Shown piece by piece: positions 900 to 28,528 of a stretch of 43,620 nt of DNA. Position numbers and translations under genes: made by a program. The stretch is taken from the IMG/VR virus record IMGVR_UViG_3300005253_000068, positions 1 through 43,620 of that record; one strand, given 5' to 3'. The stretch's first letter is position 1. Each line of letters opens with the position of its first letter. The DNA comes from a virus. The notes beneath the pieces are model-generated. The model was not told the DNA's origin. It was given only the letters and a program-made list of their open reading frames with translations, and made no database searches.

Positions 900-2755
900 A
901 TATAAAAAAAATACTTACTATTATATTGATAACTTTGCTTATTTTCTGGACTTCGTTAATAGTTTTCGCCGCTAATTCATTTCCTACAACCGTAAATACT
1001 TGGAGCGATGGAGATATTATTGAATCTGATTGGGCTAACGCTTTAGAATCTAAAATTGGAATTGATGGTTCTGCTACTACAACCTCATTAGATTATTTAA
1101 TAAAAAATTCTTCCTCATCTACTTATACTTTAGACAAGACAGATGGTGGATTTATTGTTGGTGATGGATCAGGTTGGGTTCTTGAATCTGGAGCAACTGC
1201 TAGGACTTCAATGGGATTAGGAAGTATAGCTACTGAAACAGCAACTGATTATTTGACTTTGGCCAATTATTATTCAACTACTACTTGGGCTGGAGGGACT
1301 CAAGCTTTAACCGTTGGTGGAATATTAACTGCTGATGGTGACTTAACTTTTAATGATGAAATAAAACCTGATGGAGATACTTGTTCAGATGGACAAATTC
1401 TTAAAAAGAATGTGAATGATGATTGGGATTGTGTGTATGAAGAAGATGATTCAACAATTGATTATTTTATTAACAATACGGCTGCTGGATTTGAAGATAC
1501 TTATACTATGAAAACTTCAGAAACAGGAGATGTTGAATCTTCTATTGCTTCTTCAACTCTTCCAACAGGAGACGACCAATTATTATTCGGTTTCTTATCA
1601 GATGTTGCTGCTTCATTTCATACAATTCAAGCAGGAACTTATCATTTACACGCCCAATTTGAAAAAACTGATGGAACAAGACCTACTGAAACTTACTGGA
1701 CTTTAACAGCCAGCTCAACAGATGGAACACAGACAAGGCTTTTGACGAGTGAAACAGTAACAGTTACAGATGTTAAAACACAGTTTTATATCCACGCAGC
1801 TACTTCAACTGCCTATACTTTCACAACAGGCGATAAGATTTTATTAAATATATATGCGAATGTGGGTGCAACAGGCAATGCTCCTGAAATAACAATTTAT
1901 ATGGAAGGAAATGATGATGCTCATTTAACTATTCTTACGCCAACATCAGCGATTCTTGATTTGAGTGTTTTGGTTGATGGGACTAATGCTTTATCTGCTA
2001 ACTGGAACGCAGGAAGTTATTATATTACAGCCACAGGATTTACCGGTGAAGCTTCAAGCACAAGTCAGATTAGCACATTAACTAATACTAAATGGTGTTC
2101 TACTGACGGAACCGTGATTACTTGTACAGAAGAAATACCAGGAGCTTTTGCTACTACAACAGCAGATTACTGGGGTTCGCAGAGAGCAGGAAATGACATT
2201 AGTTGGAGTTCAGGTTTTAATTTAGATGACCCATTAACTATTACTGGTTTAACTGTTACCTATTCCACAACAACAGGCACTATGGTTATTCCAACAAGTG
2301 CTTCATTACCTTTAGTTCAATCAGGACAATTTGGTTATGATACTACAACAGGCCAGTTAAGAATCCACGATGGGACTGCTGATAGAGTATTGTCTACTGG
2401 ATTAAAAGCATTTACCATTGGCTCTCTTGAAAATCCAGTTGCTGGAGACCAAATACCTAATCATTTTAAAGCTCCTTACGGAATGACAATTACACAGGTT
2501 GATTGCTTACTTGACCCTACTGATACAACAGGAATTGAATTGGATATAGATATTTTTGAGGCAGATGCAAACGGAGATTCAACTACAACTATATTTAATG
2601 TCCCCTTAACAGTTAAAAATACCAATACAGCAACATCTACATTTGCCAATGCGACAATAGATTCAGGAGATTGGGTTGGTTCTTATTATAGCAATGCTTC
2701 TGGGACAGCAAGTTGGATTAGTTGCACGGTAAAATATAGAATAACAGCTGATTAA
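896..2755 (+). CDS. Tail fibre/spike-like structural protein with signal peptide
   Basis: 619 aa. Residues 1-26 form a classic signal peptide (Lys-rich start, long Leu/Ile core, small residues ending VFA). It is followed by a WSDGDIIESDWANALESKIG motif that resembles the attachment-end repeat of many phage fibres. The rest is Thr/Ser-rich beta-repeat sequence (many TTT and STT runs), a jelly-roll-like stretch around residues 190-330 and a second beta domain at 500-619. It overlaps the previous gene by four bases. Likely a host-contact fibre. An export signal on a tail protein is unusual and is shared with four other genes here. Confidence 0.75.
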   Translation: MNIKKILTIILITLLIFWTSLIVFAANSFPTTVNTWSDGDIIESDWANALESKIGIDGSATTTSLDYLIKNSSSSTYTLDKTDGGFIVGDGSGWVLESGATARTSMGLGSIATETATDYLTLANYYSTTTWAGGTQALTVGGILTADGDLTFNDEIKPDGDTCSDGQILKKNVNDDWDCVYEEDDSTIDYFINNTAAGFEDTYTMKTSETGDVESSIASSTLPTGDDQLLFGFLSDVAASFHTIQAGTYHLHAQFEKTDGTRPTETYWTLTASSTDGTQTRLLTSETVTVTDVKTQFYIHAATSTAYTFTTGDKILLNIYANVGATGNAPEITIYMEGNDDAHLTILTPTSAILDLSVLVDGTNALSANWNAGSYYITATGFTGEASSTSQISTLTNTKWCSTDGTVITCTEEIPGAFATTTADYWGSQRAGNDISWSSGFNLDDPLTITGLTVTYSTTTGTMVIPTSASLPLVQSGQFGYDTTTGQLRIHDGTADRVLSTGLKAFTIGSLENPVAGDQIPNHFKAPYGMTITQVDCLLDPTDTTGIELDIDIFEADANGDSTTTIFNVPLTVKNTNTATSTFANATIDSGDWVGSYYSNASGTASWISCTVKYRITAD

Positions 2756-22116: not shown

Positions 22117-23286
22117 ATGGAAAACGTTATTTCAACAGAAAAATTACCGATAAAATTGTGGTTAAATGACATAGAAGATGGAGCATTAGAACAAGCCAAA
22201 AATCTTGCCAATCTTCCTTATATTTATAAGCACATAGCTATTATGCCAGATTCTCATCAGGGCTACGGAATGCCTATTGGAGGAGTTATGGCTACTCAAG
22301 GGGTTATAGTTCCTAACGCAGTTGGTGTTGATATTGGCTGCGGAATGTGTGCGGTCAAAACTTCTTTAACAGAAATTGATACAGAAACTCTTAAAAAAAT
22401 AATGGGAGAGATTAGAAAAGTGATTCCTGTTGGATTTAATAAACATAAAGAAAAGCAAGATGATTTAGTAATGCCCAGATATGATAAGTTAGATGATATG
22501 CCAATTGTTCGTACAGAATATGGCAATGCTTTAAAGTCTATTGGAACTCTTGGAGGAGGCAATCATTTTATAGAAATTCAAAAAGGTTCAGATGGTTTTA
22601 TTTGGATAATGATACATTCAGGTAGCAGGAATTTAGGATTTAAAGTTGCTGCACATTATAACAAGTCTGCGATTAGATTAAATGAAAAATGGCATAGCAA
22701 AGTTCCTAAAAAATGGGAATTAGCATTTTTACCTATTGAAACCAAAGAAGGGTTAACATATTTAAGAGAAATGCAATATGCAGTAGATTTTGCTTTAGCT
22801 AATAGGAAGTTGATGATGGATAGGGTTTTAGATATTTTTTGTAAAGAATATAGTAGTAGATGGAGTTTTGCACCAATGATAAACATAGCCCATAACTATG
22901 CTTCTTTAGAACATCATTTTGGCAAAGATGTATGGATTCACAGGAAAGGAGCTACTTTAGCCAGAGAAGGAACTGTTGGAATTATCCCGGGATCACAAGG
23001 AACAAATAGTTATATTGTTGAAGGTAGGGGAAATTTTGATAGCTTTAAGTCTTGTTCTCACGGAGCTGGAAGAAAGATGGGCAGGAAAGATGCTCAAAGG
23101 CGATTGAATTTAGATGAAGAAGTTAAAAATTTAAACGACAAAGGTATTATCCATTCTATTAGAAGTGTTAGAGATTTAGATGAAGCTCCTGGTAGTTATA
23201 AAGATATTGATGTTGTGATGAAAAATCAAGAAGATTTAGTTGACATTTCAGTAGAGTTAAGACCATTAGCAGTTATTAAAGGATAA
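22117..23286 (+). CDS. rtcB: RtcB-type RNA-splicing ligase
   Basis: 389 aa, near the normal bacterial length. All main RtcB motifs are present: PDSHQGYGMPIGG (44-56), VGVDIGCGM with the manganese Asp72 and Cys75, GGGNHF (146-151), HSGSRNLG (167-174), HNYAS (259-263), HRKGAT (275-280) and CSHGAGR with the guanylylated His315. The enzyme joins 2',3'-cyclic-phosphate ends to 5'-OH ends with GTP, repairing cleaved tRNA or rRNA and circularising RNA. It is followed within 20 bases by a 20-bp RNA helix (23302) and surrounded by clamp RNAs. Phage use against host RNases or for its own RNAs is inference. Confidence 0.95.
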   Translation: MENVISTEKLPIKLWLNDIEDGALEQAKNLANLPYIYKHIAIMPDSHQGYGMPIGGVMATQGVIVPNAVGVDIGCGMCAVKTSLTEIDTETLKKIMGEIRKVIPVGFNKHKEKQDDLVMPRYDKLDDMPIVRTEYGNALKSIGTLGGGNHFIEIQKGSDGFIWIMIHSGSRNLGFKVAAHYNKSAIRLNEKWHSKVPKKWELAFLPIETKEGLTYLREMQYAVDFALANRKLMMDRVLDIFCKEYSSRWSFAPMINIAHNYASLEHHFGKDVWIHRKGATLAREGTVGIIPGSQGTNSYIVEGRGNFDSFKSCSHGAGRKMGRKDAQRRLNLDEEVKNLNDKGIIHSIRSVRDLDEAPGSYKDIDVVMKNQEDLVDISVELRPLAVIKG

Positions 23287-23301: not shown

Positions 23302-23409
23302 TTGATAGTTCTTTTTTGGGGGAGAGAGCCGTATGAGGTTAAAGGTCTAACTTAACCATAACCCAGTAGATTAGTAATCTTACGGACTTCCCCAAAAGAG
23401 AATTATCAA
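23302..23409 (+). ncRNA. Structured RNA B with 20-bp closing helix and three-way junction
   Basis: 23302-23321 pairs with 23390-23409 over 20 base pairs with two G.T wobbles and no mismatch. Inside, CCGTA with TACGG encloses two hairpins: GGTTAA with TTAACC, and AGATT with AATCT (3-base loop). The single strand before the second hairpin reads ATAACCCAGTAGATT, close to ATAGCCCAGTAGGTT in element C. It starts 15 bases after the rtcB stop. No ORF fits. The known alternatives (terminator, riboswitch) do not match; no T-run follows. Confidence 0.7.
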
Positions 23410-23435
23410 GGTACTCTGAAAAATGGGAGTACCTT
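23408..23435 (+). ncRNA. Hairpin AAGGTACTC/GAGTACCTT, shared with 41756-41783
   Basis: Perfect nine-base arms (23408-23416 and 23427-23435) around a ten-base loop. Nearly the same arms recur upstream of the signal-peptide gene at 41843. It overlaps the foot of RNA B by two bases. No T-tract follows, so not a typical terminator; a protein- or RNase-recognition hairpin is possible. Confidence 0.55.
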
Positions 23436-23450
23436 CCAACAAGTATTAAC

Positions 23451-23478
23451 TTTAGTGACAGTGCGCACTGTCATTAAA
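23451..23478. repeat. Long palindrome with perfect 18-base core
   Basis: TGACAGTGCGCACTGTCA (23456-23473) is a perfect palindrome, extended by five further bases on each side with one G/T mismatch. It could be an operator for a dimeric protein such as the small HTH protein, or an RNA hairpin. It lies in the RNA-rich gap after rtcB. Confidence 0.6.
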
Positions 23479-23502
23479 GAAAAATTAAGGCAAATTGAAG
23501 AA

Positions 23503-23533
23503 AGAGAATCTAAAAGCATCGCCTAAGTCCTCA
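23503..23533 (+). ncRNA. Possible empty clamp element
   Basis: GAGAATCTA can pair with TAAGTCCTC (7 of 9 positions) around only AAAGCATCGCC. The 3' arm and what follows are identical to the 3' flank of element C for 47 bases (23519-23565 = 24416-24462). This looks like a clamp without cargo, or a remnant after cargo loss, sitting 32 bases before the next ATG. Confidence 0.4.
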
Positions 23534-24160: not shown

Positions 24161-24286
24161 ATGAAACTAATAAGAATAATTGGAATAATAGGTATAGTAA
24201 TGTCAGTAGCTTTTGAAAATATATATACATTACTGGGTCTTGGTTTTTTACTTTTATTAGAATCAATAGAAGATTTAAAACATTGA
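24161..24286 (+). CDS. 41-aa small membrane protein
   Basis: ATG after GCGACATTAAATTT. Almost wholly hydrophobic (IRIIGIIGIVMSVAF and LLGLGFLLLL) with an acidic end. Its TGA overlaps the first bases of clamp element C, so ribosomes would run into the 5' arm of that RNA. Confidence 0.45.
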   Translation: MKLIRIIGIIGIVMSVAFENIYTLLGLGFLLLLESIEDLKH

Positions 24287-24429
24287 GGATTTAAGTGAGA
24301 GCTGTGGCTTCAAAATAACACCTTGCTTGTCGGTTATCACAGATGACCAATGAGGTGAAAGTGGTCTGATAGCTAAGCCCTCAAATAGCCCAGTAGGTTT
24401 GAATCCTACCAGCTCTCGCCTAAGTCCTC
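24285..24429 (+). ncRNA. Clamp RNA element C with T-arm-like hairpin and pseudoknot
   Basis: 20-pair closing helix (24285-24304 with 24410-24429) with a single A.C mismatch at the same place as in element A: GAGGATTTAAGTGAGAGCTG against CAGCTCTCGCCTAAGTCCTC. Right next to the 3' arm is GTAGG-TTTGAAT-CCTAC, shaped like a tRNA T-arm with a seven-base loop. GGCTT pairs with AAGCC, ATAAC with GTTAT, GACC with GGTC, and CACCTT may reach GAGGTG as a pseudoknot. No anticodon arm or CCA is evident. It ends 35 bases before the next ATG. Confidence 0.75.
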
Positions 24430-24462
24430 AATAAGAATAATTAAAATAAACAAAAGATATAT
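24416..24462 (+). repeat. 47-base direct repeat, copy 2
   Basis: Identical to 23519-23565. It forms the 3' clamp arm of element C plus the A-rich leader of the gene at 24465. Confidence 0.9.
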
Positions 24463-24594: not shown

Positions 24595-24762
24595 ATGGAG
24601 AAAGATAAAATAAATCAAAAAGTTCAAGATATTTTAGTTAAGTTGACTGATAAGATAGGTTTTAATCATAGTAAAAAACATCAAGAGGCTTATGATGAGG
24701 CGTATGATGAATTAATGGCAATGATAGAAAACATTGAAAGACAAGCTCGCCTAAAAGTATAA
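24595..24762 (+). CDS. Hypothetical small helical protein
   Basis: 55 aa, charged helix (KVQDILVKLTDKIGFNHSKK) with a repeated DEAYDE segment. An AGAGG stretch lies three bases before the ATG. Its last codons contain AGACAAGCT, which can pair with AGCTTGTCT at 24883, linking the gene end with the RNA behind it. Confidence 0.5.
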   Translation: MEKDKINQKVQDILVKLTDKIGFNHSKKHQEAYDEAYDELMAMIENIERQARLKV

Positions 24763-24795
24763 GTCCTTAAAAGGTAACATACGTTACCATACAAC

Positions 24796-24876
24796 ATTGA
24801 GAATTTAGTATGGCGGGTTGAAAGCTGGCAAGCTAAGGGGTTCGAATCCTCAAGCCTGCCATACTAAGTCCTTAAT
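24796..24876 (+). ncRNA. Clamp RNA element D with tRNA-elbow-like fold, no anticodon arm
   Basis: 24796-24819 pairs with 24853-24876 over 24 positions with one A.C mismatch and several G.U wobbles. Inside are only two hairpins: AGCT-GGCA-AGCT, like a D-arm with the GG in the loop, and GGGG-TTCGAAT-CCTC, whose seven-base loop matches the canonical tRNA T-loop (TTCGAAT). GGCGGGTT with AGCCTGCC would be the acceptor part. No anticodon arm or encoded CCA. A GGTAAC-ATAC-GTTACC hairpin (24773-24788) precedes it. The 3' side reads TAAGTCCTTAAT, as in element C. Confidence 0.75.
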
Positions 24877-24928
24877 TGTATAAGCTTGTCTAAGTCCTTA
24901 ATAAGAATAATTAAAATAACTAATAAAT

Positions 24929-25078
24929 ATGGAAATAAAAGTAAAAGTAAAATGTATATCTTGTGGACATAAAAAAGAGGTAAAAGCTGGGGAAGTTCCG
25001 AGAGGAGAAATGCCTATGTGTGATAAATGTTCTTCAGTTATGATAGCAGTAGAAGCTACTCTCAAGAATAATAAATAA
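24929..25078 (+). CDS. 49-aa zinc-ribbon protein
   Basis: CISCGHKKEVKAGEVPRGEM then CDKCSS: a compact two-CxxC zinc ribbon. Leader TTAAAATAACTAATAAATATG follows a third TAAGTCCTTA copy (24891). Probably a small nucleic-acid-binding or structural ribbon; one of several in this block. Confidence 0.6.
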   Translation: MEIKVKVKCISCGHKKEVKAGEVPRGEMPMCDKCSSVMIAVEATLKNNK

Positions 25079-26600: not shown

Positions 26601-27047
26601 ATGGTTAAAGAAATTACAATATCATATTTGGCAGGAATAACAGATGGGGAAGGGTATATTGGAATTAAGAAATCTAAATGGGGAATGAAAAACAGAAAAG
26701 ATGTTCATTGTCCTACTTACCACGAAAGAATACAGATAAGAATGATTGATGAAGAAGCAATTAAATTATTCAAGCAATCTTTTGGTGGCAGTTATTATAA
26801 AGAAAAGGATTATATTTATTGTTATCAAATTTCTGACTTATCAGCGTCAAAAGCGTTAAGGATTTTACTTCCTTATTTGAGAATTAAAAAAAGGCAAGCT
26901 CAAATTTGTTTGAAATTAAGAAGAAATAAAGAAAGTTGTTTAGCAAAAAAAAGGGGTAGTCCGAAAGGTCGTAAAATGTCTAAAAAGATTTTAGATTATA
27001 GAGATAAGTTATGGAAACAAATAAAAGAAATTCATCAAAGAAAATAG
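26601..27047 (+). CDS. LAGLIDADG homing endonuclease inside the methyltransferase
   Basis: 148 aa with one clear LAGLIDADG motif (YLAGITDGEGYIGI, residues 9-22), so it should work as a dimer; the rest is RIQIRMIDEEAIKLFKQSFG, typical of the family, and a basic tail. It is flanked by two copies of the methyltransferase 5' end. Only about 12 bases separate it from the first, and nine from the start of the second, so no group I intron core can be present. A freestanding gene that brought along replacement host-gene sequence is the simplest reading. Confidence 0.9.
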   Translation: MVKEITISYLAGITDGEGYIGIKKSKWGMKNRKDVHCPTYHERIQIRMIDEEAIKLFKQSFGGSYYKEKDYIYCYQISDLSASKALRILLPYLRIKKRQAQICLKLRRNKESCLAKKRGSPKGRKMSKKILDYRDKLWKQIKEIHQRK

Positions 27048-27157: not shown

Positions 27158-28528
27158 TTGAGAGATTATGGAGTTAAAGGGCAAATTGGTTTAGAACCTA
27201 CTTTAGAAGAATTTATTAGTAAGCTTTTAAAAATTACTGCTGAATTAAAAAGAGTTTTAAAACCAACAGGAGTGATGTATTGGAATCACGGAGATTGTTA
27301 TGGGGGAAGTCAGGGAAGAGGAGAAGGAAAGGGAAATGAATATGGACAAATGAAATCTCAAAAGAAATCAATGGCTAAATGTTTAATGCTCCAAAACTAC
27401 CGCTTAATAATAGAGATGATAAATCAGGGTTGGATATTAAGAAATACAATAATTTGGCACAAACCAAACCATATGCCCAGTTCAGTAAAAGACAGATTTT
27501 CAAATAGTTATGAGCCAGTATTTATGTTAGTGAAAAATAATAATCCGCAGTATTATTACAATACGAAAACTGGCTTGATGATGGATAGAAAACCGAAGGA
27601 ATTGAAAAAGGGAATTGATTGGGGGTTTGAAGAGATCGGAATTATAGATAAAAATACTTTTAATGTGAGGGTTAAAGATGCAAAGAAAAAAAGGTTTTTA
27701 CAAGGAGCAACTAAAGAAGAAATTGAGAATTATAAAAAAGGGAAAATCAAGAAAGTTAATTACTGGCAATCAATTAAGTATTGGTTTGATTTAGATGCTG
27801 TGAGAGTGCCGTCGCAAGAACCGAATCAAGAAAGACCAAGAATGGGTCAAGGAAATCAAACTATTTATAAACAAAAAAGAACCAAAATTCCTAAAGAAAA
27901 TGCAGAAAGTTTTGGAAGTCCAAGAGCAAGACGATATAGAAAAACTCAAGATAAAGAATATTTAGAACATTTTAGAAAAAAAGGAAGTGGTGGTCATTAT
28001 GATTATGGAGGAATAAATGACCCAAAAGCCAGAAAAGAAATTATTAAGAGAATGATACAGCGAGGCAAAAATCCGGGCGATGTATGGAAAATAGCAACCC
28101 AACCATTTCCAGAAGCTCACTTTGCTACATTTCCTGTAAAGCTAATAACACCGATGATATTGAGCAGCTGCCCTAAAGAGATTTGTAAGAAGTGTGGGAA
28201 AGCGAGGGTGAGGATAGTAAAAGGAATACAAGATAAGAAGCCATCAAATTACAGAAGAGATGGTGGGGGAATAATGGGAAGAAAAGAAGATCAACGTGGA
28301 GGTTTAAGTGGGTATAAAAAAACAGACTTTCAAACTCTTGGTTGGACAGATTGTAAATGTAAAGCAGGATTTGAAGCAGGAATAACATTAGATCCATTTA
28401 TAGGAAGCGGAACAGTAGGAGTGGTTGCTCGCAGATATGGAAGAAATTGGCTCGGCATAGAATTAAATCCAAAATATATTAAAATGGCCAAACAAAGAAT
28501 AACTGCACAACCTGTGCCAATGTTATAA
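27158..28528 (+). CDS. Beta-class DNA methyltransferase body (m4C/m6A type)
   Basis: 456 aa from TTG 27158, in frame with 27056 but after the TAG. Features: LRDYGVKGQIGLEP, EEFISKLLKITAELKRVLKP, GVMYWNHGDCYGG, then a variable target region, a zinc-knuckle-like CPKEICKKCGK...CKC, and motif I near the end (LDPFIGSGTVGVVARRYGRN then GIELNPKYI). The order motif IV then motif I defines the beta class; SPPYW suggests N4-cytosine. Without the upstream SPPYW the protein should be inactive, so it is either a decaying gene or depends on readthrough. Confidence 0.85.
   Translation: MRDYGVKGQIGLEPTLEEFISKLLKITAELKRVLKPTGVMYWNHGDCYGGSQGRGEGKGNEYGQMKSQKKSMAKCLMLQNYRLIIEMINQGWILRNTIIWHKPNHMPSSVKDRFSNSYEPVFMLVKNNNPQYYYNTKTGLMMDRKPKELKKGIDWGFEEIGIIDKNTFNVRVKDAKKKRFLQGATKEEIENYKKGKIKKVNYWQSIKYWFDLDAVRVPSQEPNQERPRMGQGNQTIYKQKRTKIPKENAESFGSPRARRYRKTQDKEYLEHFRKKGSGGHYDYGGINDPKARKEIIKRMIQRGKNPGDVWKIATQPFPEAHFATFPVKLITPMILSSCPKEICKKCGKARVRIVKGIQDKKPSNYRRDGGGIMGRKEDQRGGLSGYKKTDFQTLGWTDCKCKAGFEAGITLDPFIGSGTVGVVARRYGRNWLGIELNPKYIKMAKQRITAQPVPML

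Follow-up and report, generated by a model that had tools for sequence, protein, structure and literature searches.

The window, by which we mean the whole virus record analysed here (43,620 bases, 34% GC), belongs to a tailed phage, with Pfam matches to SU10-like portal and adaptor proteins and to Rad52-like, YopX and RtcB proteins. The gene rtcB, encoding an RNA 3'-phosphate ligase (22117-23286, plus strand; Pfam RtcB, 8.6e-114), is accompanied downstream by a run of small co-directional genes. Three structured blocks, here named RNA0 (23302-23520), RNA1 (24282-24432) and RNA2 (24796-24876), all on the plus strand, fill gaps of 280, 178 and 166 nt in this run, in which the remaining gaps are at most 19 nt. 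RNA1 and RNA2 are located 1-1.5 kb from rtcB (about 1.5 kb for RNA2), and both lie between co-directional genes. The gene preceding RNA2 is a 55-aa ORF (24595-24762, plus strand) with its stop 33 nt 5' of the element; the gene following it is a 49-aa ORF (24929-25078, plus strand) that starts 52 nt 3' of it and carries CxxC pairs, so that its product appears zinc-ribbon-like by eye. The corresponding distance from RNA1 to the next start codon is 32 nt. Farther along the window, a LAGLIDADG homing-endonuclease ORF (26601-27047) is found just 5' of a DNA methylase ORF (27158-28528), which it possibly interrupts.

RNA2 is a complete structured unit, predicted to consist, from 5' to 3', of one strand of a long stem, a D-arm-like hairpin, two unpaired A residues, a T-arm, a single bulged A (24852) and the return strand of the stem. 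The long stem (24796-24819 with 24853-24876) spans 24 positions, including one A-C mismatch and four G-U pairs. In its conserved outer part, ATTGAGAATTTA (24796-24807, plus strand) pairs with TAAGTCCTTAAT (24865-24876); this part is marked by direct and inverted repeats and by its register with RNA1. The D-arm-like hairpin AGCT-GGCA-AGCT (24823-24834, plus strand) has a GGCA loop that is also found in mini-elements of other phages (see below). In the T-arm GGGG-TTCGAAT-CCTC (24837-24851, plus strand), a stem with one G-U pair (24837-24840 with 24848-24851) closes the loop TTCGAAT (24841-24847), which fits TTCRANY, and the arm is joined to the acceptor helix as in tRNA. With just AA between the D-like hairpin and the T-stem, an anticodon arm with its 7-nt loop is not possible. 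At the 12-bp mark of the helix, the bases are U(-1), G(1) and A(73), followed by T.

The folding energy of RNA2 is -36.3 kcal/mol (MFE and centroid structures identical; z = -5.2), and none of 200 shuffled sequences is equally stable. A scan for the layout as a whole (a T-arm with an adjoining acceptor helix and a GG-containing hairpin, and no space for an anticodon arm) returns exactly one match in the window, RNA2 (score 12.4), while 1,200 first-order Markov shuffles contain no match; the criteria were written after RNA2 had been seen. ARAGORN predicts neither tRNA nor tmRNA genes in the window. No Rfam model, that for tRNA included, reaches its gathering threshold on RNA2, and the matches at E≤10 are noise, the best from the tRNA clan being tRNA-Sec, which scores 14.9 bits where 47 are required. 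As modelled, RNA2 forms a genuine RNA structure that amounts to a tRNA elbow on an acceptor-like helix with no anticodon arm; it is not a tRNA. A preliminary description of the locus had placed such an elbow on a long acceptor-like helix, and had noted that no CCA is encoded. Both statements are borne out here, while the span given for the element (24773-24892) proves slightly wide. The full tRNA with an intron that it named as counter-evidence was found by neither ARAGORN nor Rfam, and there is no space for it. Binding to EF-Tu or to the CCA-adding enzyme, which was also suggested, finds no support, the acceptor end being buried in the 24-bp helix and CCA being absent.

RNA1 (z = -5.6), which the preliminary description missed, is a sister of RNA2. 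It has the same outer stem (24282-24293 with 24421-24432), an inner stem formed by GAGAGCTG and CAGCTCTC (24297-24304 with 24410-24417), and a T-arm, GTAGG-TTTGAAT-CCTAC (24393-24409), that stacks directly on the inner stem. The place of the D-like hairpin of RNA2 is taken by a large additional domain of uncertain fold (MFE and centroid structures disagree). The inner stem is followed by G-CC (24418-24420), and at the 13-bp mark of T-stem plus acceptor the bases are G, G and CC. The 12-bp outer stem common to both elements (ATTGAG[G/A]ATTTA / TAAGTCCT[C/T]AAT) could derive from a recent duplication. In the inner 11-12 bp, the sequences differ and pairing is kept. Aligned in register, the two stems have 21 pairs in common, with eight double (compensatory) and two single changes. 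Based on these compensatory changes, selection probably acts on the stem at the RNA level, a suggestive result from two copies, the number available since no homologues were detectable.

RNA0, immediately 3' of rtcB, is composed of three strong hairpins, a long one at 23302-23410 (z = -7.7) and two more extending to about 23480. It contains no T-loop and has no Rfam match. Its first hairpin includes GAGCCGTATGAGG, as do some group II intron domains. Each of the three RNAs is followed by the leader (G)CCTAAGTCCT[C/T]AATAAGAATAATTAAAATAA, or a close copy of it, which extends as far as the start codon of the small gene that follows: the copy 3' of RNA1 is CTAAGTCCTCAATAAGAATAATTAAAATAA (24420-24449, plus strand), and others lie 3' of RNA0 (at about 23523) and of RNA2 (at 24890). 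The leaders are AT-rich and have no obvious Shine-Dalgarno sequence. From these properties and from the relatives of its RtcB, our guess is that the phage infects Bacteroidota. The palindrome TAAGTCCTTA, exact copies of which cluster at the RNAs, was considered as a dispersed operator and rejected, since copies with up to two mismatches are no more frequent in the window than expected by chance.

Homologues of RNA1 and RNA2 were sought in several ways. Exact patterns taken from the flanks, the leader or RNA1 retrieved no homologous DNA, and a BLAST comparison of the region with INPHARED, with 295 genomes and with the records of 19 related phages gave no convincing match; the 295 genomes represent the class of Flexithrix, a weak test as the proposed host is a guess. 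No such element was found in the terminase relatives (L029-L036). An element at 11599-11653 of L022, considered as a second armless RNA, is doubtful given a competing 8-bp hairpin, and another at 5217-5260 of L139 is close to the chance level of a relaxed scan.

When patterns combining the GGCA loop with the T-arm were applied to other phages, they uncovered a set of 41-nt elements in Streptomyces phages of the Arquatrovirinae (phiHau3 and Joe, both of which can be propagated on laboratory strains) and in IMG/VR contigs (L186-L187, L189-L194 and L196). They are multi-copy, and placed between early genes, in L197, L198, L186, L190-L194 and L196, with up to 15 per genome. In each element, a 5-bp acceptor precedes a linker of 11 nt, most often A C/G N GGCA G/C N C A, which leads to a 6-bp T-stem with the loop TTCRAGY, the return strands and an A. 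BLAST with a single element matched 149 INPHARED records, 113 of which are Streptomyces phages. Position 1 is G and the base after the discriminator is C in all 48 elements compared, and the discriminator is A in 46 of the 48. The 39 distinct sequences have a covariation score of 0.611, against 0.155 when shuffled. As acceptor and T-stem pairing was imposed by the search, the fact that it is complete proves little; two-sided changes in these stems are informative within the set so selected. Pair 7-13, which the search did not impose, is formed in 39 of 39 sequences (CG in 26, GC in 12, GU in one) and is, judged from the sequences, a minimal one-pair D-stem.

All eight elements of Joe are intergenic and 32-50 nt 5' of the next start codon, and seven of them begin 6-15 nt 3' of the preceding stop. 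Most of the 41-nt matches have no annotated feature beneath them, and in some records they fall under an Ocr-like or hypothetical gene. The elements thus apparently form an unannotated family; they are not mentioned in the paper on phiJoe (PMC5311408), and a description elsewhere in the literature is possible. A covariance model of the family (R1) has a single match on L189 (50 bits; 1487-1527, minus strand), a 31-kb viral contig with flanks that look AT-rich and that is apparently outside the Streptomyces phage group; it has no match on phiC31. On the window, R1 detects the T-arm of RNA2 and no other part of it, at 7.9 bits, which falls short of membership in the family.

The 41-nt elements resemble RNA2 in combining an acceptor, a GGCA D-like loop and a T-loop in the absence of an anticodon arm. 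They also resemble RNA2 and RNA1 in place, being intergenic, on the coding strand, shortly 5' of a start codon (32-54 nt, against 52 nt for RNA2 and 32 nt for RNA1) and present several times per genome. In contrast to RNA2, they have a one-pair D-stem and a 5-bp acceptor, are GC-rich and lack a long outer stem. Because R1 sees nothing of RNA2 beyond its T-arm, we limit the parallel to plan and position: the two share their plan, the GGCA loop, the T-loop and their location, and common ancestry is not proven.

The proximity of rtcB together with tRNA mimicry suggested a comparison with the bacterial Y RNA YrlA, for which we used the RF02553 consensus and alignment, two sequences above the cut-off (L113 and L114) and three just below it (L115-L117). 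YrlA is likewise a non-coding RNA with a T-arm and a D-arm on a long stem and no anticodon arm, and it is often genetically linked to rtcB, as RNA2 is in this record. However, YrlA is circularly permuted (stem, T-arm, closed acceptor-like hairpin, D-arm, stem), whereas RNA2 keeps the order of a normal tRNA (stem, D-like hairpin, T-arm, stem). The long Ro-binding stem of YrlA occupies the anticodon position, while that of RNA2 is the acceptor. RF02553 has no match on RNA2 at E≤10. Based on the order of modules and the absent model match, RNA2 is not a YrlA.

YrlA-like RNAs do occur near relatives of this RtcB. Tandem modules, under the Rfam cut-off, lie 5' of a Band_7 (slipin)-rtcB gene pair in Flexithrix dorotheae and in a Flammeovirgaceae MAG (L046, 6150-6290; L052, 680-820), where RtcB is 63% identical to that of the phage. 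The modules in L107, L112 and L109 are real YrlA-like modules as well; the other weak RF02553 matches of that search, where they could be checked, are pairs of ordinary tRNAs and were set aside.

tRNA genes are also found in or around rtcB. In two phages, complete tRNA-Pro(UGG) genes lie within the rtcB frame (L002, 6361-6437; L008, 534-608), in frame, stop-free and at two different sites. tRNA-Pro(UGG) genes lie just 5' of rtcB or of an rtcB fragment in L003 (5899-5972) and L028 (3586-3663). Several bacterial genomes have tRNA-His(GUG) near rtcB (L061, L067 and L102; farther off in L048, L075 and L078); three of these genomes have it about 100-240 nt upstream of the gene. In addition, phages with a related RtcB encode tRNA-like genes with abnormal anticodon arms (L001, 1022-1093; L004, 1884-1955; L014, 5503-5598; L018, 8262-8324; L008, 2144-2226). 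These have 4- or 6-nt loops or broken stems, one has no D-stem, and ARAGORN misses them. A tRNA-Asn-like gene with an anticodon arm and a T-arm and no D-arm is part of a tRNA array in L142 (1969-2026), which belongs to the phage of L007.

We tentatively favour a reading in which RNA2 is a cis-acting, tRNA-mimicking mark in a polycistronic phage mRNA, used by enzymes of tRNA maturation. RNA2 would be co-transcribed with its neighbours in a polycistronic early mRNA and would act in cis. The host tRNA-maturation machinery would recognise its elbow (T-loop and D-loop) together with its acceptor helix, in the first place through RNase P, with RNase Z or RNase III as candidates for the long stem. 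The enzyme would act on the message between genes, by cutting or capping it, and each downstream gene would begin with a leader of its own and with a 5' end that is structured and protected. We prefer this cis role to that of a free decoy RNA because of the intergenic repetition and the conserved spacing to the next start, and because the leaders are shared and the elements are placed on the coding strand.

Punctuation of a tRNA-like kind is favoured because the 41-nt family keeps features read by RNase P, an enzyme that also cuts RNAs other than tRNA. The features read by bacterial RNase P include the T-loop, the GG-loop, G1, A73 and C74. Its substrates extend to mRNAs, intergenic RNAs, phage C4 and M3 RNA and tRNA-like structures (PMC11143913; PMC12710915). 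Like RNA2, non-tRNA substrates such as C4 and M3 RNA, polycistronic intergenic regions and the tRNA-like structures of plant viruses present a tRNA-like helix in a non-tRNA transcript. Unlike them, RNA2 has a helix too long for a standard substrate and is a candidate only. The outer 12 bp push the helix far past the length of a tRNA acceptor, an expected obstacle to RNase P acting at the 12-bp mark, and a helix of 24 bp would be a more natural substrate for RNase III. Either enzyme could release or cap the downstream message. RNase P and RtcB, both named as possible partners in the preliminary description, are two reasonable leads, the former given the determinants kept in the intergenic elements of other phages, the latter given the neighbouring gene.

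The main rival is a trans-acting tRNA mimic, in which RNA2 (and RNA1) would be set free as small RNAs and would bind to RtcB, to an anticodon nuclease or to some other protein that binds tRNA, serving as a decoy or tether, Y RNA-like in action without being a Y RNA. The short distance to rtcB fits such a role, and there is precedent in the bacterial rsr-yrlBA-rtcBA operons, which pair RtcB with a tRNA-mimicking RNA, and in the proposal that YrlA competitively inhibits an anticodon nuclease (PMC7790460). The YrlA-like modules and tRNA-Pro genes adjoining relatives of this RtcB point the same way. Against this, no Ro60/TROVE gene is present in the phage record itself, and RNA2 differs from YrlA in module order. 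A promoter or terminator belonging to RNA2 could not be recognised (a weak test), and the repeated sites before start codons with common leaders fit a cis role better. We consider action in trans rather unlikely.

Alternatively, RNA2 might be what is left of a tRNA gene after loss of the anticodon arm, caught in a leader cassette that was duplicated and now serving no function. Decaying tRNA genes are common in phages, the tRNA arrays of other phages include tRNAs that are odd or lack the anticodon arm, relatives of this RtcB phage have odd tRNAs too, and the G-CC end of RNA1 resembles the 3' end of tRNA-Ser. A decaying gene, however, should neither keep a 24-bp stem of such stability nor have that stem covary with RNA1, and we regard this origin as improbable.

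An ordinary stem-loop (an RNase III site, an mRNA stabiliser or a terminator lacking poly-U) in which the likeness to T-loop and D-loop arose by chance is, in our view, slightly more improbable still. The long stem alone could suffice for such functions, and RNA0, which belongs to the series, combines strong stems with the lack of a T-loop. Yet a T-arm beside an acceptor helix with a score of at least 9 is expected 0.015 times per shuffled window, and two or more in none of 400, while RNA1 and RNA2 each have one; nor was the complete layout seen among the shuffled windows. An attachment site or captured host tRNA 3' end is very improbable, for although phage attP sites often contain T-arm and acceptor segments of tRNA, none of the 30 window ORFs searched against Pfam matched an integrase, the 5' acceptor strands are present as well, and the genomes of the Flexithrix class yielded no match (again a weak test).

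Cis-acting tRNA-like punctuation, the reading we prefer, can be set beside other known elements. The SAS/ESAS of cluster K mycobacteriophages are, like this RNA series, repeated conserved elements 5' of early-gene start codons, some with inverted repeats; their sequence differs, and no T-loop or tRNA resemblance is reported for them (PMC3203893). The tRNA-like domain of tmRNA, and tRNA-Sec, likewise retain a T-arm and acceptor with the rest reduced or unusual. Both are longer than RNA2, and in contrast to it tmRNA has a CCA, an SmpB site and a tag ORF, and tRNA-Sec has an anticodon arm.

A broader possibility, which we advance with considerable doubt, is that unrelated phages have independently placed anticodon-less tRNA elbows in the spacers of early operons, as repeated punctuation that borrows host tRNA-maturation enzymes to cut and cap the messages of individual genes. 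The window would then hold an AT-rich, long-stemmed version of this arrangement beside RtcB. Known tRNA mimics include Y RNAs, tmRNA and the 3' ends of plant-virus RNAs. If the broader possibility is true, tRNA mimicry would have a new use, in multi-copy anticodon-less elbows that mark the spaces between genes of phage operons and that have escaped tRNA finders and Rfam, and phages could separate their messages with neither a terminator nor an RNase of their own.
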